Source: Candidatus Gastranaerophilales bacterium (GTDB taxonomy: Bacteria; Cyanobacteriota; Vampirovibrionia; Gastranaerophilales; Gastranaerophilaceae). From it: a stretch of DNA of 47,217 nt. Numbering within the stretch: the first letter of the stretch is position 1; each line of letters opens with the position of its first letter. Below are positions 1-47,217 of this stretch, piece after piece. The DNA is taken from assembly GCA_944325665.1 (NCBI GenBank), contig CALVAY010000014.1:1-47217 (forward strand), written 5' to 3'. Below the pieces are notes generated by a model, which was not told the origin of the DNA, ran no database searches, and worked only from the letters and a program-made list of their open reading frames with translations. Both the position numbers and the translations under genes were made by a program.

Positions 1-276
1 GCGCGCAAGAGAATTGAACGGAGTCTTCCTTAGTACGAGAGGACCGGGAAGAGGGAACCTCCAGTGTACGGGTTATCCTGCCAAGGGTAAACGCCCGGTA
101 GCTGTGTTCCAAGCGGATAAGTGCTGAAAGCATATAAGTACGAAGCCCACCGTAAGATGAGTTCTCTTTTGACACAAGTCAGTAAGTCCCCTTGCAGATC
201 ACGAGGTTGATAGGACGCAGGTAGAAGAATGGCAACATTTGCAGCCGAGCGTTACTAATAGGACGAGGGCTTTTCC
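1..276 (+). rRNA. rrl: 23S ribosomal RNA, 3' end (partial)
   Basis: The window opens inside domain VI of 23S rRNA. The conserved sarcin-ricin loop sequence AGTACGAGAGGACC is at about 32-45, followed by the typical GTGTACGGGTTATCCTGCCAAGGG-like region and the final CGTTACTAATAGGACGAGGGC segment. The 3' end is estimated near 276, where a processing stem (TTTTCCT with AGGAAAA, 273-300) begins. The 5' part lies outside the window. Confidence 0.97.
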
Positions 277-370
277 TGATAACCGTTTGGTTAAGGAAAA
301 TACATCGGTTTTATATTATCTGTGCAACTTTCAGCGTGCAGGCTGAAAAAGCTGCATGACATCAGGTTTT

Positions 371-487
371 TCTGGTGGCCAAGCGGTAGGACTCCACCCG
401 TTCCCATCCCGAACACGGTCGTAAAGACTACTTGCGCTGACAATACTCGGAGGGTAGCCTCCCGGGAAGATAAGTCGCTGCCAGATC
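371..487 (+). rRNA. rrf: 5S ribosomal RNA
   Basis: About 117 bases with the conserved CCATCCCGAACACGG loop B/C region. The closing helix is formed by TCTGGTGGC at the start and GCTGCCAGA at the end. It lies about 95 bases after the 23S end, the normal rrn order, with no tRNA between them. Confidence 0.95.
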
Positions 488-2820: not shown

Positions 2821-3558
2821 TTAATTCTCCAAATACATTTTTGCCAGTTCGTCCGAGTGTGGAAAGTTTCTTTTTAAAATTATATTGCTGACCTTTTTGT
2901 TGTCATATTTTGTAGTTTTGTGCTCAATTTGAAATGTAGCATCGTTGTTTATTGTAAGCAATGCCCAATAAGGCATTTTATCTTGCGTCATAGAACGTCC
3001 AACCGAGCCAACGTTTACAACTGTTTTACCTGAATTTAAGCTATATCCGCAAGGCAAGTGGGTATGTCCGCATAAAATTATCTGCGCATTTGAGTTTTCT
3101 ACCATTTGCTCAACTTCATTAATATCCAAGTTAGGGTAAATATTCTCATCTTGTTTTCTTGGTGAACCGTGAACAAGTTCTATTTTTAAATTATTTATTT
3201 CTATGCTTTTCTTCTCGGGTAAATTTCTTATAAAATCAAGATATTTTTTATCGATTATATTTAAATCATCTCTTAGGGCGTAACCCATACAAGGGAATTT
3301 ATTTTTTGCTAATTCAAAAAGCTCTTCGCTGTAATTAGCAAGCATTTTATCTGTGTTACCTTGGATTATTTCAAAATTTTCTTTGTATTTTTTAATTAAT
3401 TCAAAAATTTTTGCCCCTGTTGAATTTGGGTCGTATCCTGCTAAAAATAAATCACCGAGGCAGAAAATCTTATCAACATTGCTTTTTTCAATTTCAAAAA
3501 GTACAGCTTCAAGCGCCTCTAAATTTGCGTGTATATCTGATATAATTGCTATTTTCAT
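2821..3558 (-). CDS. Metallophosphoesterase (YfcE/MJ0936-like)
   Basis: 245 residues of the calcineurin-like phosphoesterase fold. Metal-binding blocks appear in order: SDIHAN (residues 7-12), GDLFLAG (about 35), QGNTDK (about 64), HGSPR, and CGHTHLP (about 162-168) followed by NVGSVG. The second block has GDLFLAGYDP where GDxVGYGP is usual. Members hydrolyse phosphodiesters with two divalent metals; the natural substrate is usually unknown. It is the first gene of a probable two-gene unit with the TPR protein and is divergent from ispG, with 34 bases between the starts. Confidence 0.88.
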   Translation of the reverse strand: MKIAIISDIHANLEALEAVLFEIEKSNVDKIFCLGDLFLAGYDPNSTGAKIFELIKKYKENFEIIQGNTDKMLANYSEELFELAKNKFPCMGYALRDDLNIIDKKYLDFIRNLPEKKSIEINNLKIELVHGSPRKQDENIYPNLDINEVEQMVENSNAQIILCGHTHLPCGYSLNSGKTVVNVGSVGRSMTQDKMPYWALLTINNDATFQIEHKTTKYDNKKVSNIILKRNFPHSDELAKMYLEN

Positions 3559-3592
3559 GCTATGATTTTAACATAAAAAAGGAATTAATGTT

Positions 3593-4657
3593 ATGGAAAA
3601 AATTCAAATCAAAATTGGGGATGTAAAAATTGGTGCAGGCGCTCCGATTAGCGTACAGTCAATGACAAATACTAAAACGGATGATGTCGAAGGTACGCTA
3701 AGACAGATAAACGAGTTTTATCAAGAGGGGTGCGAAATAGTTCGTCTTGCAGTTTTAAATAAAGACTGTGCGCAAAAAATAAAAGAAATAAAAAATAAAT
3801 CGCCTCTGCCGATTGTTGCAGATATTCATTTTGATTATCGTCTAGCGCTTGAGTGCATGAATTCAGGCGTTGATGCTCTAAGACTTAACCCCGGTAACAT
3901 TGGCGGTATGGAACATGTAAAAAAAGTTGTAGATTTAGCTAAGAAAACAAATACTCCAATTAGAATAGGTGTTAATGCGGGGTCATTAGAAAAGCATTTA
4001 CAGCAAGATAAAAGTTTGACTCTTGAAGAAAAAATGGTGAAATCTGCACTTGCTCATATAAAAATTCTCGAAGATTGCGATTTTAATTTGATAAAAGTTT
4101 CACTAAAATCGAGCGATGTTATGACAACAATTAAGGCTTATAAAATGATTTATGATTTAATTCCATACCCTCTGCATGTTGGAGTAACCGAAGCCGGAAC
4201 GCTAAGAGGTGGTTTGATTAAATCCTCTATCGGCATAGGTTCGCTTTTGTCTCAAGGTATAGGGGATACAATAAGAGTGTCATTAACTGAAAACCCGATT
4301 GAGGAAGTTCGCGCGGGCTGGGAAATCTTAAGAGCTATGAAATTAAGGCAAAGAGGAGTTAATTTTGTTTCTTGCCCTACCTGTGGCAGGACGCAAATTG
4401 ATTTAATATCTCTTGCTAAAAAAGTTGAGGAAAGATTTAAAAATTTAAATGAAAATATTACAATTGCTACAATGGGCTGTCCTGTTAACGGACCAAATGA
4501 AGCTCGTGATGCGGATTTTGGTATAGCGGGAGCAATTGGAGAAGGGTATATTTTTAAAAAAGGCGAAATGATTAAAAAAGTTCCGCAAGAAAATCTTTTA
4601 GACGAGCTTGAAAAAGTTATAAAAGAAGATTTAGGCGAATTGAAATATTTTAGCTAA
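3593..4657 (+). CDS. ispG: 4-hydroxy-3-methylbut-2-enyl diphosphate synthase (IspG/GcpE)
   Basis: 354 residues. IspG is the [4Fe-4S] enzyme that converts MEcPP to HMBPP in the MEP isoprenoid pathway. Visible hallmarks are the N-terminal SVQSMTNTKTDDVEGT, the TIM-barrel motifs LRLNPGNIGG and RIGVNAGSLE, and the C-terminal cluster-binding CPTCGRTQIDL with GCPVNGPNEA, which supply three Cys ligands. The length matches the standard two-domain bacterial enzyme. AAAAAAGG lies upstream of the ATG. It indicates use of the MEP pathway. The electron donor is not encoded nearby. Confidence 0.97.
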   Translation: MEKIQIKIGDVKIGAGAPISVQSMTNTKTDDVEGTLRQINEFYQEGCEIVRLAVLNKDCAQKIKEIKNKSPLPIVADIHFDYRLALECMNSGVDALRLNPGNIGGMEHVKKVVDLAKKTNTPIRIGVNAGSLEKHLQQDKSLTLEEKMVKSALAHIKILEDCDFNLIKVSLKSSDVMTTIKAYKMIYDLIPYPLHVGVTEAGTLRGGLIKSSIGIGSLLSQGIGDTIRVSLTENPIEEVRAGWEILRAMKLRQRGVNFVSCPTCGRTQIDLISLAKKVEERFKNLNENITIATMGCPVNGPNEARDADFGIAGAIGEGYIFKKGEMIKKVPQENLLDELEKVIKEDLGELKYFS

Positions 4658-4731
4658 AAATTACATTAAATAGGTGGTCAAAAACGCTCAATAGTATATA
4701 ATAATGTTAATTGAATACAATGAGGTAAATT

Positions 4732-5106
4732 ATGAAGAAAATAATTTTAGCACTTACTTTAATGTTTATGGCTCAGGCTTCTTTTGCTTATATTGTTGAA
4801 GGCAATACTGCCGATATGCAAGAGTATCAAAGTTCAGGGCATTCTCAAGCATTTCTTAAAATGATGGATTTATCGGTTGAACAAAGCCAAGGGGTTGAAC
4901 ATAAATACGTAAGATATTACAAAAATTATGAACCAAAAAATAAATATGCTGCTGCTTACACAAAAGCAAGAACATATTTTGATCCGACAACCGAGGATGG
5001 TTTCTTTGGTCGCCATGAAACAGACTTTCACAATGCTTGGTTCTTTGATATAGAAGATAAATCAGTTTATCCTAATGAACAAAGACAACAGATTGAAAGC
5101 TTGTAG
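4732..5106 (+). CDS. Small exported protein of unknown function
   Basis: 124 residues with a clear Sec signal peptide: KK followed by a hydrophobic core and an AQASFA-Y cleavage site near residue 19. The mature part is hydrophilic and rich in Tyr, Asp and His, with no recognised domain. A TATAAT-like box lies at about 4695-4702 and GAGG is the ribosome-binding site. The 3' end overlaps the end of convergent nuoN by 35 bases, so the two transcripts are antisense there. No family is recognised; a lineage-specific periplasmic protein is a reasonable guess. Confidence 0.65.
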   Translation: MKKIILALTLMFMAQASFAYIVEGNTADMQEYQSSGHSQAFLKMMDLSVEQSQGVEHKYVRYYKNYEPKNKYAAAYTKARTYFDPTTEDGFFGRHETDFHNAWFFDIEDKSVYPNEQRQQIESL

Positions 5107-6511
5107 TAAGGTTAATTAAGTCAGAATTTATAATAAGCGTTAAAAAGCACAATATTAGACAGATAAAGAGGATAAAATAATTAAGTTTTGTCCTCTTTGC
5201 GTATTTATTTGTATTGAAAAATTCTTCTTGAGCCGGTCTTTTAAGCATAATTTCACTTAGCCTTAGAGTTGATACGATTAAAAGTGTGTATGCTAAAATA
5301 GCGGCAAATGAAACAACACTACTCCATAGTCCTGTTTCACTAAGAGTTGAGAGTGAATAAATTCTTGATGTTAAAACGCCTGTTGGAACTAGACCTGCAA
5401 GAATAAACAGGACAGTACTTAAGAGCATAAACAGTTTTTTATTAATATGGCAAATTCCTTGAATAGATGTAAATTCAAGAGAATTTGTATTTGCTTTTAA
5501 TATTGAAAATATGTTTATTAGAGCTAATGTTATAATTTGCGTATTTATTAAAAGAGTTAGTGCGGCAGAGCTTGTTTTTGGGGTGAGGGTAAAAAACAAG
5601 ATTAAAATTGCGCAAAAATTAAGCGAATTAAACTTTGAAAGAAAATTTTCTAAATTCGATACTCTTGTCAGTTTAAGTCCATAGACAAGCATTAATAAAG
5701 TAAGAATAAATATGAAAATAAACTGCGCTGCACAACCTGCTTTAAGGTACATAAGAGATGTCTTATACGCCATAATTAAGCCGCTACTATAAGTTACGGT
5801 ATTTAAAAATGTTAGAGCGGGAAAGTTAATATTTTTGTCAAAAATATTGTGTAAATTAGTTTTAAAGATTATTGCGCCATACAGCAAAAGTTGAGAGATT
5901 GTTATAAGAAGTGAATTTTTAACGGTTAAGACGTTTGACAGTGCAAGAGATAGGAAAATTAATGCTGTTGAAAAAGCTGAAAATACAATGTATCTAAAGC
6001 CGTCAATAAAAGTTTCTTTTGTTTTAAAGCCTAAAAGTATAAAAAATGCGCATATAAAAATTGCCTCAAAAGCCAAAAGTGAAACAATGATATTTTGAGA
6101 TAAGATTAAAATGTTTAAAGCAAGAGCTGAGCATAAATATAGGGAATTAAAATAATATTTTTTATGTCTGAGTTTTTTAAGTAAATCAAAAGACGTGCTA
6201 AAAACAAGTAATATAAGTAAATTTGCACATATACAAAGGAACAGATTGGATGAGTTTAAAATTAAACTGTCGTTAAAATAACTAAGATTTTTTAGTCCTG
6301 ATGTATTTAGGAAGCCAAAAAATGCAGGCAGTTGGAAAATTGCCGCGCCAATTAAACTTAAATATACGACAAAATTTGAAAAAACGCCCGATTTCTTATT
6401 TAAAAGCCCGCTAAACAAAAAGTTGAAAATTGTTCCTAAAAACAGGATAAGAAAGCCTAAAAGTAAATATGTATTTTTTTGTGTGATTATAAAGTTGTCT
6501 AATAGAAACAT
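5072..6511 (-). CDS. nuoN: NADH-quinone oxidoreductase subunit N-like antiporter subunit
   Basis: 479 residues with about 13-14 hydrophobic segments, matching NuoN in length and position. In family members a Glu in TM5 and a Lys in TM7 carry proton transfer. Here they appear kept as E149 (LLAFEAIFICAFF) and K217 (GAIIFKTNLHNIF). A further TM8 Lys of E. coli NuoN appears as Tyr (FLNTVTYSSGLIMAYK). Sequence is divergent otherwise; for example the usual PFHLWTPDVYQGAP loop is not recognisable after K217. It is the last gene of nuoJKLMN, nine bases after nuoM. Assignment as N rather than another antiporter-like subunit rests mainly on gene order. Confidence 0.8.
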   Translation of the reverse strand: MFLLDNFIITQKNTYLLLGFLILFLGTIFNFLFSGLLNKKSGVFSNFVVYLSLIGAAIFQLPAFFGFLNTSGLKNLSYFNDSLILNSSNLFLCICANLLILLVFSTSFDLLKKLRHKKYYFNSLYLCSALALNILILSQNIIVSLLAFEAIFICAFFILLGFKTKETFIDGFRYIVFSAFSTALIFLSLALSNVLTVKNSLLITISQLLLYGAIIFKTNLHNIFDKNINFPALTFLNTVTYSSGLIMAYKTSLMYLKAGCAAQFIFIFILTLLMLVYGLKLTRVSNLENFLSKFNSLNFCAILILFFTLTPKTSSAALTLLINTQIITLALINIFSILKANTNSLEFTSIQGICHINKKLFMLLSTVLFILAGLVPTGVLTSRIYSLSTLSETGLWSSVVSFAAILAYTLLIVSTLRLSEIMLKRPAQEEFFNTNKYAKRTKLNYFILFICLILCFLTLIINSDLINLTTSFQSVVFVH

Positions 6512-41232: not shown

Positions 41233-41785
41233 CTTTTTTGTGTTCCTTCCATTCTTCTCTTAGAATTGAATATTTATAGCCATCGCAATATTGATTACTA
41301 GTTTTAAGGAAATTTTTTTTCCGAAAAACACCTTCTTGTATAAAACCATTTTTAAGCAGCGCTTTTTGACTACCAATATTTTGCTCATAGGCTCCAGCTT
41401 CAACCCTATGCAGTTTTAATGTTTCAAAAGCGAATTCTAAAATCAGTCCAATAGCCTCTGTGGCATAGCCTTTGCCCCAACAACTTTTTTCTCCTATTAA
41501 GTATCCAATATCGGCAAATTTGTATAAGTAATCAATTGGACCTATTTTAATATTTCCTATATGTTTTGTGTTGTGTATTATTGCGAAAATATAACTATGT
41601 TTACTATCGTTAATTGATGCAACAAAATCCTTCACGCTGTTGATATTATGCTTACTCCAGCGACTTTCAAGATATTGGTTGGTTTCATTGTCGTTTAGCC
41701 AATTTATGTAATACTCTTGACAATCAGCCAATTCAAGCGTCCTTAGAATAATATTTTTACCTGTTATCTGTCCATCATATTTCAT
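41222..41785 (-). CDS. pseH: GNAT N-acetyltransferase, probable PseH
   Basis: 187 residues from the ATG at 41785, which overlaps the reductase stop as ATGA and has GGTGAG just upstream. RimJ/RimL-type GNAT: NIILRTLELADCQEYYINWLND, GYLIGEKSCWGKGYATEAIG (acetyl-CoA loop, about 90-110), and HRVEAGAYEQNIGSQKALLKNGF. By position it would acetylate the 4-amino group made by PseC. Identity as PseH is by context; the sequence alone says GNAT. Confidence 0.8.
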   Translation of the reverse strand: MKYDGQITGKNIILRTLELADCQEYYINWLNDNETNQYLESRWSKHNINSVKDFVASINDSKHSYIFAIIHNTKHIGNIKIGPIDYLYKFADIGYLIGEKSCWGKGYATEAIGLILEFAFETLKLHRVEAGAYEQNIGSQKALLKNGFIQEGVFRKKNFLKTSNQYCDGYKYSILREEWKEHKKDAK

Positions 41786-42681
41786 TTTCTCACCCATAAA
41801 CTTGGCATTACTATATTAGTGTCTATATTCTCAAACTCTTTTGCAATTTGGTGAATTGTATCTTTTGAAAAATCGTGCTCAAAGATTTCAATGTTTTCTC
41901 TAAGTTGCTCTATGTTGTCTACTCCAAATACAAGATGAGATATTACGTTAAATTGTTTTACAAAAAGCATTGCTAGTTCAATTCTTGAAATATTAAATTG
42001 TTTGCAGAGTTTATCAATTTTTTTGATAATAGGTTTTGCATCTGACAAAAATTCCGGCACTTTGTCTTCATCCATTAAAATTAATCCTTGGATAAAAGCA
42101 CTTCTGGAGTGGATTTGAGTATTTTGTTTTTCTTTTGCCAGTTTGAAAATACCTTCTTTTTGCATTCTCTGGTCAAAAATACTGAAGGGTAATTGGATAA
42201 AGTCTACGTAATTTGAATTAATACAAGCGACTGCTTCGTCAGGATAATATACCGATACACCACAGTGTCTTATTTTTCCTTGTTTTTTAACTTCGTATAG
42301 GCTTTTTAATATTTCATCGTTAAAAGCATATCTGGAACTATGTAAGATATAACTGTCAAGATAGTCGGTATTTAGTCTTTTTAGGGATTTTTCCAAATTT
42401 TCTTCAATGATATTTTTATAATCTTCAACTTTATGTGCATCGAGTTCGTTTGGTTTGAATTTGGAAATAATAAAAAGTTTGTCTCGGCTAATGGTTTTTC
42501 TCTTTATAAATTCACCCACGACATCTTCTGCGCAGCCATAGGCATAAGCGGTATCAATATTATTTATACCGTTTTGTGTTGCAAAGTCTAGCATTTTTAT
42601 CGAATCTTCAAGGCTTGGCATCCTTTGGTTACAAATACCGTAATCCATACCAAACTGTACTGTTCCAAGACATAATTTCAT
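41782..42681 (-). CDS. Aldo/keto reductase
   Basis: 299 residues from the ATG at 42681; a TTG at 42702 would give a non-family extension. AKR landmarks are CLGTVQFGMDYG at the N-terminus, the catalytic Asp and Tyr in NIDTAYAYG, Lys in IISKFKPNE and His in SYILHSSRY. The NADPH site at the end reads VISHLVFGVDNIEQLREN. AKR genes recur in pse loci, but a defined step in CMP-Pse synthesis is not assigned to them. It may be used for a variant sugar or for reduction of a keto intermediate. Confidence 0.87.
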   Translation of the reverse strand: MKLCLGTVQFGMDYGICNQRMPSLEDSIKMLDFATQNGINNIDTAYAYGCAEDVVGEFIKRKTISRDKLFIISKFKPNELDAHKVEDYKNIIEENLEKSLKRLNTDYLDSYILHSSRYAFNDEILKSLYEVKKQGKIRHCGVSVYYPDEAVACINSNYVDFIQLPFSIFDQRMQKEGIFKLAKEKQNTQIHSRSAFIQGLILMDEDKVPEFLSDAKPIIKKIDKLCKQFNISRIELAMLFVKQFNVISHLVFGVDNIEQLRENIEIFEHDFSKDTIHQIAKEFENIDTNIVMPSLWVRK

Positions 42682-42705
42682 ATTAAAAACACTCAGCTCC
42701 AATCT

Positions 42706-43809
42706 TCACAGACATTTTTTAATCCTTTTAACAATTTCATCCAAGTCTTTATTGGTTAAGTCGGGATAAAGCGGCAGCGAAATACATTTCTTGTAATATA
42801 TTTCAGCGTTTGGAAAATCGCCCCAATTGTACCCTTGCTCCCTGTAGCAGGGTTGAGTGTGAACAGGTATGTAATGTACCTGTAAATTCAGCCCCTCTTT
42901 CTTGGCTTTTTGATAAAATTCTGCTCTATTTCTAACCATTACGGGATAGAGATGAAAACAAGCATTTGAGTATTCCATTTCTTCCAGATGTGCTAAACCA
43001 AGGTTTTTATTGTAATACTCGACAATTTCACGTCTTCTTTTTTTGAATTTTTCAAGCTTTTTAAGTTGTGAAATTCCAAGAGCAGCTTGAATATCTGTCA
43101 TTCGATAGTTGTAACCAAGCTCGCGCATCTCATATTCCCAAGTATTTTGCATTTCGCCGTCTTTATGCATGCCATGCGAGCGGTAGGCTAAAAGTTTTTG
43201 GTATAATTCAAAGTTATTTGTAACAACCGCACCGCCTTCGCCTGTTGTAATTGTTTTGACAGGGTGAAAAGAAAAAACAGTCATATCTGAAAATTCGCAG
43301 CAGCCGACTTTTTTGCCTTTATACTCAGATCCAATCGCATGCGCCGCATCTTCAACAACTTTTAAATTGTGTTTTTTTGCAATTTCATAAATTCTTTCCA
43401 TATCGCAGCTTTGACCCGCAAAATGCACGGGAATAACGGCTTTTGTCTTTGAATTTATATGCTTTTCTATTTCATTCGGGTCGATATTTGCTGTTTTTTC
43501 TTCAATATCTGCAAATTTAACCGTGGCACCACAGTATCTGGCACAATTTGCACTTGCAAGAAAAGTCATAGGGCTTGTTATTACCTCGTCACCTTCTTTT
43601 ATGCCAAGTGCCAACATTGCAATGTGCAAACCCGATGTTGCACTGTTAACTGCAACACAGTATTTTGCACCGGTGTAGTTGCAGATTGCTTGCTCAAACT
43701 CTTTAACCCTGGGACCGCAGGTTAAAAATGGTGATTTTAGGACTTTAAGTACGCTGATAAAATCACTGAAATCTAAATGCTGTTTTCCGTAAGCATAAAT
43801 TTTAGGCAT
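42706..43809 (-). CDS. pseC: UDP-4-amino-4,6-dideoxy-N-acetyl-AltNAc transaminase
   Basis: 367 residues of the DegT/DnrJ/EryC1 family. PLP contacts: NSATSGLHIAMLALGI, SPMTFLASANCARYCGA, VVEDAAHAIGSEYKGKKVG and the Schiff-base Lys in FSFHPVKTITTGEGGAV (about 185), followed by RELGYNYRMTDIQAALG. PseC aminates the 4-keto sugar made by PseB. The adjacency to pseB (8-base overlap) and the rest of the set favour PseC over other sugar aminotransferases. Confidence 0.93.
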   Translation of the reverse strand: MPKIYAYGKQHLDFSDFISVLKVLKSPFLTCGPRVKEFEQAICNYTGAKYCVAVNSATSGLHIAMLALGIKEGDEVITSPMTFLASANCARYCGATVKFADIEEKTANIDPNEIEKHINSKTKAVIPVHFAGQSCDMERIYEIAKKHNLKVVEDAAHAIGSEYKGKKVGCCEFSDMTVFSFHPVKTITTGEGGAVVTNNFELYQKLLAYRSHGMHKDGEMQNTWEYEMRELGYNYRMTDIQAALGISQLKKLEKFKKRRREIVEYYNKNLGLAHLEEMEYSNACFHLYPVMVRNRAEFYQKAKKEGLNLQVHYIPVHTQPCYREQGYNWGDFPNAEIYYKKCISLPLYPDLTNKDLDEIVKRIKKCL

Positions 43810-44800
43810 CTAAGTCCCCTATTAACTTCCTCATATCTTCCACGCTTAACCATCTGTCGTTATTGCCGCTGTGGTATTCAAAATCACTATCAACAGGTTT
43901 TGCATTCGGGTATTTGTAGTCAATGTGTTCAATATTTATCTCGGGCAATATAATATAAAATTCGCCCATATCAATAGTATTTCTTGCATCCTCTTTTGTT
44001 ATCATTTGCTCGTGAACTTTTTCGCCGGGGCGTATTCCGATTTCTTTAATTGCAAGATTTGGCGCAATTGCACGAGCCAGGTCAGGCATGCGCATTGAGG
44101 GTATTTTTTTAACATAAAGCTCTCCGCCTTGCATATTCTCAATTGCTTCCAGCACCATTTCAACCGCTTGCTCAAGCTTTAGCCAAAATCTTGTCATATT
44201 CATATCTGTGATAGGCAGTTCTTTTGCACCTTCTTTAACCAGTTTTTGGAAAAATGGTATAACAGAACCCCTTGAGCCTGCAACGTTTCCGTATCTTACA
44301 ACAGAGAAACGAGTTTGCCTTGTTCCACAGTAACAATTTCCTGCTATAAATAATTTATCTGAGCACAACTTTGTGGCGCCGTATAGGTTAATTGGTGCAC
44401 AAGCTTTATCTGTGGAGAGTGCCACAACCCTTTTTACACCCTTATCAATAGCCGCATCAATTATATTCTGTGCACCCAGAACATTTGTCTTAACTGCTTC
44501 AAAGGGATTATACTCACAAGCAGGTACTTGCTTTAGCGCTGCCGCATGAACTACAACATCCACACCTTCAAATGCTCTGTATAATCTTTCTTTGTCTCTG
44601 ACATCGCCTATGAAAAATCTTAATTTCTCAAGATATGGTTTAAATTCCGGCATGTTTTGCATTACAAATTGTTTGTACTCATCTCTTGAAAAAATGATAA
44701 TTTTCTTTATATCAGGGTATTTTTCAAAGGCAATTTTTGTAAATTTTTTGCCAAAGCTACCTGTACCACCCGTAATTAAAATTGTTTTGCCGTTTAACAT
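43802..44800 (-). CDS. pseB: UDP-GlcNAc 4,6-dehydratase (inverting)
   Basis: 332 residues. Extended SDR with ILITGGTGSFGKKFTKIA (NADP loop), IIIFSRDEYKQFVMQ, FFIGDVRDKERL, VHAAALKQVPACEYNPFE (the active site replaces Tyr neighbourhoods as in PseB/FlaA1), STDKACAPINLYGATKLCSDK and RYGNVAGSRGSVIPFF. It removes water and inverts C5 as the first committed step to pseudaminic acid. It leads the operon; GGGAGAG lies six bases before the ATG, and a promoter is visible 21 bases upstream. Confidence 0.96.
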   Translation of the reverse strand: MLNGKTILITGGTGSFGKKFTKIAFEKYPDIKKIIIFSRDEYKQFVMQNMPEFKPYLEKLRFFIGDVRDKERLYRAFEGVDVVVHAAALKQVPACEYNPFEAVKTNVLGAQNIIDAAIDKGVKRVVALSTDKACAPINLYGATKLCSDKLFIAGNCYCGTRQTRFSVVRYGNVAGSRGSVIPFFQKLVKEGAKELPITDMNMTRFWLKLEQAVEMVLEAIENMQGGELYVKKIPSMRMPDLARAIAPNLAIKEIGIRPGEKVHEQMITKEDARNTIDMGEFYIILPEINIEHIDYKYPNAKPVDSDFEYHSGNNDRWLSVEDMRKLIGDLDA

Positions 44801-44849: not shown

Positions 44850-45155
44850 GGAATTTATAAGTTTTGTTATCAATTTTATTTGCGCTAACCGCCTCTTTTC
44901 TCTTTTGCTCGTGTAAAAATGGTTTTGCAATTAAGACTGTTTATAATTGCAATAAAAAAAGACTTCTTTGAAAGAAGTCTTTTTATGGTGGACCAAGTTC
45001 ATCACTTCTCGAACTATTTAGCAAAAATAGAATTTATATTGATGTATCAGAAAGAGTGTTTTATGTTTGTTTTGATTTAAAATTTGCAGCATAAAATAGC
45101 CTATCATTTTTTAATAGACTTTAAATTAAAATTTTAAAAACTAAAGCATTATTAA
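44850..45155. other. Intergenic region between pseB and the accessory block
   Basis: No gene is seen. It contains the hairpin at 44954-44985 and a small AGTTC/GAACT inverted repeat near 45000-45019. The rest is AT-rich with no recognisable motif. Confidence 0.6.
44954..44985. terminator. Strong bidirectional hairpin terminator upstream of the pse operon
   Basis: AAAAAGACTTCTTT / AAAGAAGTCTTTTT perfect 14-bp complementarity around one G. A run of seven A on the left gives a T run for minus-strand transcription; the right side gives TTTTTA for plus. It isolates pseB from upstream minus-strand transcription. Confidence 0.85.
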
Positions 45156-45350
45156 TTAGTTTTTATTTTTATTTTTATTTTTATTTTTTTGCCAGATTTT
45201 AAATTCTTCTACGTTTTTAGGGTCACTATAAAATCTTTTTGCGGCTTCAATTGTGGCAAGTGCCAAAGCTCTAGCCACATCTTCTTCGATTAAATCGGTG
45301 TTAATTACAACACCACCTTTTTTCTTGGATTCTGATTTGCCATTTTGCAT
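45156..45350 (-). CDS. Small hypothetical protein with Lys-Asn repeat tail
   Basis: 64 residues. A basic start (MQNGKSESKKKGG), then a helical part VINTDLIEEDVARALALATIEAAKRF, then FYSDPKNVEEFKIWQ, and five Lys-Asn units coded by an AAAAAT hexamer repeat. No signal or HTH is evident. GGAAGG eight bases upstream of the ATG supports translation. It is divergent from the DUF3800 gene, the two sharing a 111-base intergenic region with a 10-bp inverted repeat, so it might be a partner or antidote, but I do not recognise it. Confidence 0.55.
   Translation of the reverse strand: MQNGKSESKKKGGVVINTDLIEEDVARALALATIEAAKRFYSDPKNVEEFKIWQKNKNKNKNKN
45160..45190. repeat. Hexanucleotide tandem repeat (ATTTTT)n
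   Basis: Four exact ATTTTT units at 45165-45188 with partial units at both ends, lying in the 3' end of the small gene and coding for Lys-Asn. The period of six keeps frame. Confidence 0.85.
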
Positions 45351-45380
45351 GTCTTGCCTTCCTTTCTTTTGTAGTACACA

Positions 45381-45426
45381 AAAATGGACTTTAAAAAGCT
45401 GTATCGCGCAATTTCCAGTCCATTTT
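45381..45426. repeat. Perfect 10-bp inverted repeat in the divergent promoter region
   Basis: AAAATGGACT (45381-45390) and AGTCCATTTT (45417-45426) separated by 26 bases. They sit 31 bases before the small minus-strand gene and just before the -10 box of the DUF3800 gene. It could be a paired operator or form a cruciform. Confidence 0.8.
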
Positions 45427-45427
45427 A

Positions 45428-45436
45428 TGATATAAT
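45428..45436 (+). promoter_or_regulatory. Extended -10 promoter element of the DUF3800 gene
   Basis: TGA-TATAAT, 25 bases before the ATG, with no convincing -35 box. GAGAGGA follows as ribosome-binding site. Confidence 0.55.
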
Positions 45437-45461
45437 TATTGAATAAAAGAGAGGAATTTAC

Positions 45462-46184
45462 ATGGAATCAAATGAAATAAATGTATATTGTGATGAAAGT
45501 TGCCACTTGCAAAATGATGGTCAAAAGGTGATGGGGTTTGGGTCAATTTGGTGTCCAAAAAATAAAAGACTTCAAATTTGTAAAGATATTAGAGCGATAA
45601 AACATAATTTTGATATAAAAGAAAGAGCTGAAATTAAATGGACCAAAGTATCGCCTTCAAAAATAAATTTTTATGAAAAATTAATTGAATATTTTTTTAA
45701 TAGTGATGATTTAAGATTTAGGGCATTAATAATTCCAGACAAGAATAAATTGAACCATAATGAATATAATCATACCCATGATGATTTTTATTACATTATG
45801 TATTATTACACTTTAAAACATTTTTTGCGAAATGAAGAATCATACAATATATATATTGATATAAAGGACACAAAAAGTTGGGAAAAAACTTCAAATCTTA
45901 AATATTGGCTTTTAAAATATTTTAAAAATAAAAATTATTATTTCGATGAAAAATGTTTTATAAAAAAAGTTCAATTAGTTAGATCGCATGAAACAGAATT
46001 AATGCAACTTACTGATTTATTACTGGGAGCTATTGTTTATAAAAATAGGGGTATATATAAAAGCCCAACCAAGTTTTCACTAGTTGAAAAAATTGAACAT
46101 TTTAACAAATATCCTTTAAATCGAAAAAGTTTATATGGCGATTCTAAATTTAATATTTTTATTTGGGATGGAGGAAATAGATAG
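45462..46184 (+). CDS. DUF3800 domain protein (predicted RNase H-like fold)
   Basis: 240 residues. The N-terminal NVYCDESCHLQNDGQKVMGFGSIW (Asp-Glu near residues 11-12), the middle YNIYIDIKDTKS and the late ELMQLTDLLLGAIVYKNR are the three acidic blocks of DUF3800, which is thought to have an RNase H-like fold. These proteins occur sporadically on mobile elements and near defence genes. Extremely AT-rich and rich in Lys/Asn/Tyr compared with housekeeping genes in the window, suggesting transfer. Its stop is two bases before the next ATG. Confidence 0.82.
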   Translation: MESNEINVYCDESCHLQNDGQKVMGFGSIWCPKNKRLQICKDIRAIKHNFDIKERAEIKWTKVSPSKINFYEKLIEYFFNSDDLRFRALIIPDKNKLNHNEYNHTHDDFYYIMYYYTLKHFLRNEESYNIYIDIKDTKSWEKTSNLKYWLLKYFKNKNYYFDEKCFIKKVQLVRSHETELMQLTDLLLGAIVYKNRGIYKSPTKFSLVEKIEHFNKYPLNRKSLYGDSKFNIFIWDGGNR

Positions 46185-46186
46185 TT

Positions 46187-46687
46187 ATGAATTATTCTGT
46201 TTCTTGGTTGCCAAAATTAATAGAATATAATCCTCAAATTGACAATATCGATAAATATATTGAAGATATTTATCAAATTTATATAGAAGAATTCATAAAT
46301 CAAGGGATTTTTTTTAAAGGTGAAAAACTTGCATTGAAGAAAATGCCAATACGAAATGGGAAAGAAGCAACTTTTTATCACATTGTTAGTGAAGGCGAGG
46401 ATGAAGAAAATAGAAAAATTGATATTGACAGATGTGCACGCATAAGATGGCCAAAAGCAATATTGGCTTCTAATTATATTGGTTTGAAAATTTGGGAAAA
46501 TAAGCGAAAGAATAAAAATAATATACTTGTCTGGTTTTCCGAAATTGAATATTTGATTGTTATAAGAAAAAACCCAAATATAAAATTATTTTGGACTGCT
46601 TATCCTGTAACAAAGGAGCATAGGAAAAGAAAATTACAAAAAGAATACGAGAATTACATTAATAAAATGCAAAAATCGCCTCAATAA
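46187..46687 (+). CDS. Hypothetical protein, possible BECR-fold (phage-type) RNase
   Basis: 166 residues. The second half has ATFYHIVSEGEDEENRKID, DRCARIRWPKAIL, ILVWFSEIEYLIVIRK and KLFWTAYPVTKEHRKRKLQKEYENY. Order and motifs (a His near the start of the domain, an R-x-x-R-I-x-W segment, and T-A-Y-P-V before a basic helix) recall the phage Barnase-EndoU-ColicinE5/D-RelE nucleases; this is from memory, not a search. It is coupled to the DUF3800 gene (two bases apart, GGAGG upstream). Its last codons lie in a hairpin. Confidence 0.6.
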   Translation: MNYSVSWLPKLIEYNPQIDNIDKYIEDIYQIYIEEFINQGIFFKGEKLALKKMPIRNGKEATFYHIVSEGEDEENRKIDIDRCARIRWPKAILASNYIGLKIWENKRKNKNNILVWFSEIEYLIVIRKNPNIKLFWTAYPVTKEHRKRKLQKEYENYINKMQKSPQ

Positions 46688-46698
46688 ATTGAGACGAT
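46672..46698 (-). terminator. Hairpin overlapping the end of the second accessory gene
   Basis: ATCGCCTCAA / TTGAGACGAT, ten pairs including one G-T, with TAAA loop. On the minus strand it is followed by TTTTT, so it would terminate transcription entering from the right; on the plus strand it lies over the last codons of the upstream gene. Confidence 0.6.
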
Positions 46699-46771
46699 CT
46701 CGTTACTCTTTCTACAACTTGGCAGATGAGCTATCTATATTATGGCATACATAAATTAAAAAGTAAATACT

Positions 46772-46794
46772 TTTTGTAAAATTTCTTTACAAAA
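46772..46794. repeat. Operator-like inverted repeat upstream of a strong promoter
   Basis: TTTTGTAAA - ATTTC - TTTACAAAA, a perfect 9-bp palindrome arm pair four bases upstream of the -35 box. A third TTTACAAAA copy sits between -35 and -10 (46807-46815). Confidence 0.75.
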
Positions 46795-46797
46795 CTA

Positions 46798-46826
46798 TTG
46801 ACAATTTTACAAAAAATATGTATCAT
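46798..46826 (+). promoter_or_regulatory. Near-consensus sigma70 promoter
   Basis: TTGACA, exactly 17 bases, TATCAT, so -35 is perfect and -10 has 5 of 6. Transcription would start near 46833 and run out of the window. Confidence 0.75.
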
Positions 46827-46854
46827 GCAATTTTTTGTCATGCTATTTTATGAG

Positions 46855-46882
46855 TTCGAAATCAATATTTGTTGGTTTCGAA
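46855..46882 (+). repeat. 11-bp hairpin in the untranslated leader
   Basis: TTCGAAATCAA / TTGGTTTCGAA with one G-T pair and loop TATTTG, beginning about 22 bases after the predicted transcription start. No T run follows, so it is not a terminator. Confidence 0.7.
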
Positions 46883-47217
46883 GTGTCGATAAGGTTTAAT
46901 GAGACATTTGAGTTGTAGAATAATAGCCTCAATTAGGCAGTATGTTTGAATATTAGCGGTATTTTTTAAATTGACTGTAATTACTCAAATTGGTCTTTTG
47001 CTACTCTTTTTGTCTCTCAAAATCCAACAAAAATTCAAATAAGCTACCTGAAATTTAAGCACTGATAAGGTTATAGCGATTTTAAATAAAGGACAAAAAT
47101 GTCCCATTTGAAATACTAGTTTTCTACTCGGAAATAAGTCGGAAGCTTAAATGTATTTTGATTTTTTGTTTGTTATGCCAAAATCAACATAACATTTTGT
47201 TAACCAATTACGGAAAA

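Follow-up and report, generated by a model that had tools for sequence, protein, structure and literature searches.

Known systems and the rlfAB locus

The described systems close to the locus analysed here include ToxIN, a type III toxin-antitoxin system, and AbiF-RCd22; in both, an effector of RNase type is accompanied by its own small RNA, and both have a role in abortive infection (PMC5449768, PMC12373285); in the second of them, AbiF is neutralised by the RCd22 RNA through direct binding (PMC12373285). The present locus, rlfAB, was found in contig CALVAY010000014.1 of a Candidatus Gastranaerophilales bacterium (assembly GCA_944325665.1) and consists of two genes, whose products are homologues of RlfA and RlfB of phage P1, and of a small structured RNA encoded on the opposite strand just downstream of them. 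The stretch analysed, which we call the window, is the entire contig 14 (47,217 nucleotides, nt) of a 1.65-Mb genome. Our preferred interpretation, to which we assign a probability of about 0.55, is that these three parts constitute an RNase defence restrained by the RNA, and that the solo copies of this RNA found in phages act as antidotes.

Under this interpretation, rlfAB would share with ToxIN and AbiF-RCd22 the type of effector, the dedicated RNA and the role in abortive infection, but it differs from both in the fold of the effector (BECR-like), in the presence of a second enzyme (a DUF3800 protein) and in its single RNA unit, located downstream and on the opposite strand, whereas type III systems are defined by a tandem-repeat antitoxin RNA directly upstream on the same strand. 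A further point of comparison is PrrC, whose gene is placed within a type I restriction-modification (R-M) operon (EcoprrI) (PMC3874165). Some relatives of rlfAB are likewise found inside or directly behind type I R-M genes, but there is no protein family in common and the rlfAB copy of the window is not adjacent to R-M genes.

The pair of genes is already listed in PADLOC as the unproven candidate PDC-M04, both models of which match the window proteins (PDC-M04A, E 2e-84, for RlfA; PDC-M04B, E 1e-52, for RlfB), encoded by adjacent genes in A-B order and 2 nt apart. These models cover the two proteins only and not the RNA, which is new in this analysis. No literature naming PDC-M04 was found in a search that had most subscription papers and preprints outside its reach. 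In phage P1, RlfA and RlfB (RapA and RapB in P7) show the same gene order and spacing, 42% and 32% identity to the window proteins (tblastn) and the same RNA, the P1 copy of which is unannotated (NC_005856, ~52904-52980, minus strand); the P1 genes form part of a phage gene set beside repL under the C1 operator, whereas the window copy belongs to a chromosomal mobile unit. In P1-like plasmids of E. coli, the features lying under rlfB or the RNA bear the label oxidoreductase or hypothetical protein, probably as a result of mis-annotation. Structured RNAs have also been described near DUF3800 genes (Rfam DUF3800-I to DUF3800-XI; PMC10910872, PMC11701678), but none of them matches the rlfAB RNA.

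A structured RNA linked to rlfAB

An all-against-all comparison of the flanks of related loci revealed, immediately after rlfB, 24-60 nt of DNA that different phyla share at 85-100% identity, whereas the RlfAB proteins of the same loci are only 30-45% identical and the upstream flank is not conserved. In the window, the conserved element corresponds to a structured RNA of ~72 nt on the minus strand (46662-46733), convergent with rlfB, whose 5′ end (~46733) and U-rich 3′ end (~46662) were placed from conservation and structure. This region, which the earlier note on this DNA had overlooked and which turned out to be the most informative part of the locus, scores 68 bits (E 2e-20) with the R1 model of the RNA. 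Read on the minus strand, the conserved element comprises 5′-AGCUCAUCUACCAUGUGUAGAAGGAGU, followed by a hairpin and a U-rich tract. Helix 1 (46705-46731), the most conserved part, is formed by CUC/GAG and UCUGC/GUAGA and closed by a 6-nt loop; helix 2 (46672-46701) is a terminator-like hairpin that overlaps the stop codon of rlfB and precedes the U-rich tract. Upstream of the RNA, and also on the minus strand, there are two promoter-like boxes (46739-46767), TTTACT (46762-46767) and CATAAT (46739-46744), separated by 17 nt.

The RNA was located in 81 of the 84 rlfAB loci tested, and the other three stop ~50 nt or less past the rlfB stop codon. Its linkage to the pair is strict: every one of the 81 pairs whose downstream sequence is long enough has a copy, and even in L273, a divergent pair, a copy is clear although weak (25 bits, E 9e-7). 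Weak R1 matches in cyanobacterial genomes (E above ~1e-8) were not counted as real.

Both the structure and the strand of the RNA are supported by several comparisons. RNAalifold predicted the two helices from 67 sequences, and 96.4% of the cells of the alignment are paired, compared with 42-52% when the partners are slid by 1-3 columns. Double changes are found in 12 of the 18 base pairs (154 double-change cells versus 41 in shuffles), and G·U cells outnumber A·C cells on the minus strand (112 versus 15), the opposite of what an RNA on the plus strand would give. Folding energies in the window are -23.1 kcal/mol (z -4.4) for the minus strand and -10.9 (z -1.1) for the plus strand. In addition, across 80 loci, promoter-like boxes at the right distance before the RNA reach a mean score of 9.2 versus 7.4 in mononucleotide shuffles, and in five Bacteroidales loci these boxes are of the Bacteroidetes type (TTTG/TAnnTTTG). 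These signals suggest that the RNA is expressed from the minus strand.

Searches of the Rfam families, including the DUF3800 RNAs, gave no match at gathering score in the window or in 20 relatives, and none up to E 10 over the RNA. No variable guide-like or spacer-like segment is present in the RNA of the related loci, and a guide-RNA reading was dropped on that ground. In nine loci, mostly gammaproteobacterial (L011, L033, L041, L048, L050, L053, L059, L061 and L069), the loop of helix 1 bears an extra variable hairpin. A likeness of the RNA to a tRNA D-arm (UAGCUCA...GAG) was seen by eye and is not relied on here.

Solo copies of the RNA in phages and chromosomes

The RNA is not restricted to loci carrying rlfAB. 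A degenerate pattern of its core matched at least 120 viral stretches and, among the matches listed (to which the counts of this section refer), 79 distinct loci were left after removal of near-duplicates. In 71 of them rlfAB is absent, as judged on the fetched stretch and maybe not on the whole contig, and in the remaining 8 it is present. For instance, phages of the SPbeta/phi3T group carry the solo RNA between yonN and yonK; SPBc2 has two copies (L292, 2500-2634), the first of which has lost helix 2. Tandem or nearby copies are also found in three other loci (L297, 2369-2571; L130, 1018-1315; L134, 2979-3290). No literature on a yonN/yonK RNA was found; most subscription papers and preprints were outside the search, and prior reports are possible. 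Solo copies are present as well in Vibrio phages 1.084.O and 1.121.O, in the Rhizobium TM30 group, in Geobacillus PT9.1 and in Mammaliicoccus phi6255. These sequenced solo-RNA phages do not overlap with the phages in which relatives of RlfA or RlfB were found.

The phage copies retain the structure of the RNA. There are 228 double-change cells in the phage set versus 57 in shuffles, a count that leans towards the model because the alignment was fitted to it, and all 10 pairs of helix 2, which, in contrast to helix 1, was not fixed by the search pattern, are compensated. This strong compensation of helix 2 indicates that the RNA itself is under selection in phages. The solo copies also disfavour a role restricted to cis-antisense control of rlfB.

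Many of these copies are accompanied by tRNA genes. A tRNA gene lies within 300 nt of 18 of the 71 solo copies, while random positions gave a mean of 7.5 and a maximum of 14 in 300 draws, and all 80 tRNA genes located within 1 kb of solo RNAs are on the strand of the RNA. A role against defences that cut tRNA has been proposed for phage tRNAs (PMC10264068), which makes this company suggestive. Two loci are conspicuous in this regard: a viral contig in which the RNA is surrounded by ~30 tRNA genes and one for tmRNA (L127, 1298-12081), and Rhizobium phage RHph_TM30 (L296, 2428-4640), where the solo RNA is inside a tRNA array, ~560 nt before a gene for a TROVE (Ro60-type, RNA-binding) protein.

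The RlfA and RlfB proteins

The first gene, rlfA (45462-46184, plus strand), codes for a protein of 240 residues. The earlier note had taken it for an RNase H-like DUF3800 protein, and both parts of that proposal hold. Its sequence places this partner of the second gene in DUF3800 with certainty (PF12686; E 6.5e-15, 56.6 bits versus a gathering cut-off of 21), and its structural model (predicted local distance difference test, pLDDT, 91) has RNase HII as the best VIA match (Z 11.7, 163 residues, 3.6 Å), followed by Piwi domains (Z 8-10). An RNase H fold of DUF3800 has also been reported in published work (PMC10910872, PMC12669027). Residues D11, E12, D133 and D185 are 98-100% conserved and sit where the D-E-D-D set of RNase HII is expected, an equivalence judged by place in the fold and not by superposition. 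RlfA is predicted to be a metal-dependent, RNase HII-like nuclease.

The second gene, rlfB (46187-46687, plus strand), starts 2 nt past the end of rlfA and codes for 166 residues. It is not a chance open reading frame (ORF), since its product matches PDC-M04B and also phrog_16230 (E 1e-22). The AlphaFold2 model (pLDDT 95) consists of a helical segment, a four-stranded antiparallel meander and a C-terminal helix, and BECR RNases fill the first 14 places of its VIA-align list, led by the colicin D tRNase (1tfo; Z 5.3, 84 residues, 2.9 Å) and followed by YafQ, HigB1, RelE and others. Such Z values, around 5, are moderate, and Foldseek against the PDB gave nothing significant (best E 0.19). Seven residues (F63, H65, R76, R82, W88, W103 and T137) are invariant in 68 RlfB sequences. 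H65 is placed in helix 61-67 and T137 in strand 4 (133-140) of the model, in agreement with the published rule for BECR RNases of the colicin D/E5 type, which combine an N-terminal active-site His with a Ser or Thr in strand 4 (PMC3482391). The assignment of a BECR-like fold is thus based on the consistent list of matches, the topology and these two invariant residues, and RNase activity may be predicted from that fold.

The earlier note, which had described the second protein as resembling phage-type BECR nucleases, made this idea stand or fall on structural likeness to such enzymes, and that likeness was found. In addition, the motifs that it had picked out by eye fall on conserved columns: ARIRW on R82, R85, I86 and W88, and WTAYPV on T137 and A138. 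By contrast, the phage-type label did not survive, because no Pfam family matched RlfB up to E 1, the PBECR families included; neither did any NCBIfam family. Comparison at the level of sequence profiles, which the note had recommended, was also negative: hhalign to the colicin D tRNase domain gave a probability of 0.2 over 17 columns, and no sequence links to BECR families were found among PDB sequences. RlfB is therefore supported, by its modelled fold and residues, as BECR-like, and is a member neither of the phage PBECR Pfam families nor of the colicin D family.

Pairing and genomic context

Relatives of RlfB were collected from one genome per species, giving 78 loci from Proteobacteria, Bacteroidota, Planctomycetota, Elusimicrobia, KSB1, Chlamydiae, Dehalococcoidia, Patescibacteria and others. 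The recurrent pairing for which a neighbourhood survey had been suggested is evident in them: rlfA is directly upstream of rlfB, in the same direction, in 76 of the 78, and in the remaining two the contig ends at rlfB. Among 57 further viral RlfA loci, RlfB is encoded beside or shortly after RlfA in 53, and the other four end at or inside rlfA. The pairing is thus near-obligate. Bifidobacterium phage Bbif-1 also has the pair, with rlfB unannotated. In one cyanobacterial locus (L317, genome G183; 3086-5805), a TnpB-like ORF (3670-4875) is found between the two genes, and the RNA is intact (71 bits).

Some relatives have R-M genes as neighbours. An HsdS gene precedes rlfA in ~15 loci, most of them gammaproteobacterial, with its end no more than ~25 nt from the start of rlfA and frequently overlapping it. 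In two loci a type III Mod gene directly precedes rlfA, and an ORF of ~965 residues occupies the expected place of res after rlfB; hsdM, hsdR and res were recognised by size only. A wider Pfam survey of the nearest neighbours of rlfAB revealed no other common partner. The possibility of an anti-phage module, raised in the earlier note, agrees with the copies behind HsdS or Mod and with the candidate listing as PDC-M04.

In the window, the two coupled genes form an AT-rich block, as had been described, with a GC content of 25-27% versus 34-38% in the left flank. They are part of a mobile unit of 1.94 kb with sharp borders (44947-46889), which had gone unnoticed until now and which recurs, at 97.8% identity and between unrelated flanks, in another Gastranaerophilales metagenome-assembled genome (L009). 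There, the unit is flanked by a gene for a Fic-type protein on the left and by tRNA-Val on the right, whereas the window copy adjoins surface-polysaccharide genes on its left. In congeners devoid of rlfAB, the DNA orthologous to the right end of the window starts at 46887-46890, that is, at the right border of the unit. The pair is present in one of 15 genomes of the window's own genus, so the unit is sporadic in its lineage.

A divergent ORF for 64 residues (45156-45350, minus strand), which the earlier note described as sharing the regulatory gap, is real, and its relatives adjoin several Gastranaerophilales copies of rlfAB. It was rejected as a third core component, because only some of those copies have it and the upstream flank is not conserved between lineages; it may be a lineage-specific passenger or regulator. 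The surface-polysaccharide genes (aldo/keto-reductase-like, aminotransferase and 4,6-dehydratase-like; 41782-44800) end just left of the mobile unit, and the beginning of the window (1-486) contains the 3′ end of a 23S rRNA gene and a 5S rRNA gene.

Possible functions of the module

In the model that we favour, RlfB would be a metal-independent RNase of BECR type, harmful to the cell because it cleaves RNA (tRNA or translated mRNA being the most likely substrates), and RlfA, as a metal-dependent RNase HII-like nuclease, would act together with it. The ~72-nt RNA would act in trans and hold RlfAB inactive by direct binding, like the antitoxin RNAs of ToxN and AbiF. Upon infection, host transcription shut-off or an attack on a neighbouring restriction system would cause the RNA to be lost or bypassed, RlfAB would become active and the infection would abort. 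The RNA that phages carry without the genes, in many cases among their tRNA genes, would be an antidote to this response. We read rlfAB as an abortive-infection module because it combines a BECR-like RNase, an RNase H-type enzyme, a pair-linked RNA apparently acting in trans, solo phage copies of that RNA and, in some relatives, R-M neighbours. The two gene families, their pairing, the structure and strand of the RNA, its linkage to the pair, its solo phage copies and the R-M neighbours are results of computation; expression of the RNA, toxicity, neutralisation, substrate, trigger, the part played by RlfA and defence as such are inferred from them.

Several observations weigh against this model. 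The invariant active site of RlfA fits poorly with a pure antitoxin scheme, and the annotation of P1 points to a role of rlfAB in lytic replication. Only a minority of the solo copies are linked with tRNA arrays, and the clustering of small RNA genes may have other causes. Moreover, the phage copies could act as decoys if the enzyme is activated by RNA, or could serve the phage otherwise, and the RNA is also found without rlfAB in some E. coli chromosomes. Of these chromosomal copies, one borders a prophage-like element and others lie near dinD-yicG; those in L314, L315 and L316 (4497-4580 in each) are located close to a capsid-gene element or within the dinD-yicG region.

The strongest alternative, which we nevertheless consider unlikely, is that the RNA is an activating cofactor, so that RlfA, RlfB and the RNA would form a ribonucleoprotein active on a trigger, with the phage copies competing for RlfAB as decoys or inhibitors. 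In favour of it are the invariant nuclease active site of RlfA, the noncoding RNAs and RNA-guided systems that DUF3800 nucleases accompany (PMC10910872, PMC12669027), and the RNA's own promoter-like boxes and strict linkage to the pair. Nonetheless, it has no guide-like variable segment, and the solo phage copies keep the full structure with the terminator hairpin, which a minimal decoy would not need. This alternative shares with the RNA-restrained model the prediction that the phage RNA protects the phage; the two differ in the effect of losing the native RNA.

It is decidedly less probable that rlfAB is an ordinary protein toxin-antitoxin pair, in which RlfA restrains RlfB or the reverse while the RNA merely tunes expression from the opposite strand. 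The adjacent or overlapping genes in fixed order would suit such a pair, as would the protein antitoxins that BECR toxins usually have (RelB, DinJ), but the same RNA structure is kept by phages without rlfB, which is unexpected for a cis-acting antisense RNA, and RlfA looks like an enzyme and not like a small inhibitor.

We regard it as very unlikely that rlfAB serves phages and plasmids in lytic replication or in another housekeeping task, with the RNA as a regulator. The name rlf denotes a possible association with lytic replication, the P1 genes lie downstream of repL and next to the C1 operator, and phrog_16230 is labelled a replication protein, but the old replication label is based on gene position. 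Knock-down of rlfA or rlfB in P1 leaves plating at ~1, and hence the genes are not needed for plaques (PMC10695390); P1-like elements vary in this region or have other DNA in its place (PMC6906374, PMC9603915), and most related loci are in bacterial contigs without common replication genes, several of them behind R-M genes.

Finally, it is hardly credible that the conserved element is a DNA feature (an attachment site, a terminator or the end of a mobile element), as its position near the right border of the mobile unit and the tRNA genes adjoining some Gastranaerophilales copies might suggest, given the strand-specific G·U pairs (which in particular disfavour an attachment site), the same-strand compensatory changes, the lineage-matched promoter-like boxes, the far better folding of the minus strand and the maintenance of the element in phages without the mobile unit.

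Implications

Widespread as they are, DUF3800 proteins await an explanation, and certain phage tRNA clusters contain RNAs without a known use. One DUF3800 family is now tied to a fixed partner with the fold of an RNase toxin and to a specific RNA, and this RNA is found alone in many phages. Model phages are included, as P1 carries it with the genes and SPbeta carries it alone, and a directly testable hypothesis arises, namely that the small RNA of SPbeta neutralises RlfAB. We consider the chances evenly balanced that rlfAB represents a new class of RNA-controlled abortive-infection module and that SPbeta, T4-size and jumbo phages keep their solo RNAs in tRNA arrays as antidotes, which would form a widespread family. 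If this is true, it would add a class of RNA-restrained defence together with a common RNA-based counter-defence of phages.
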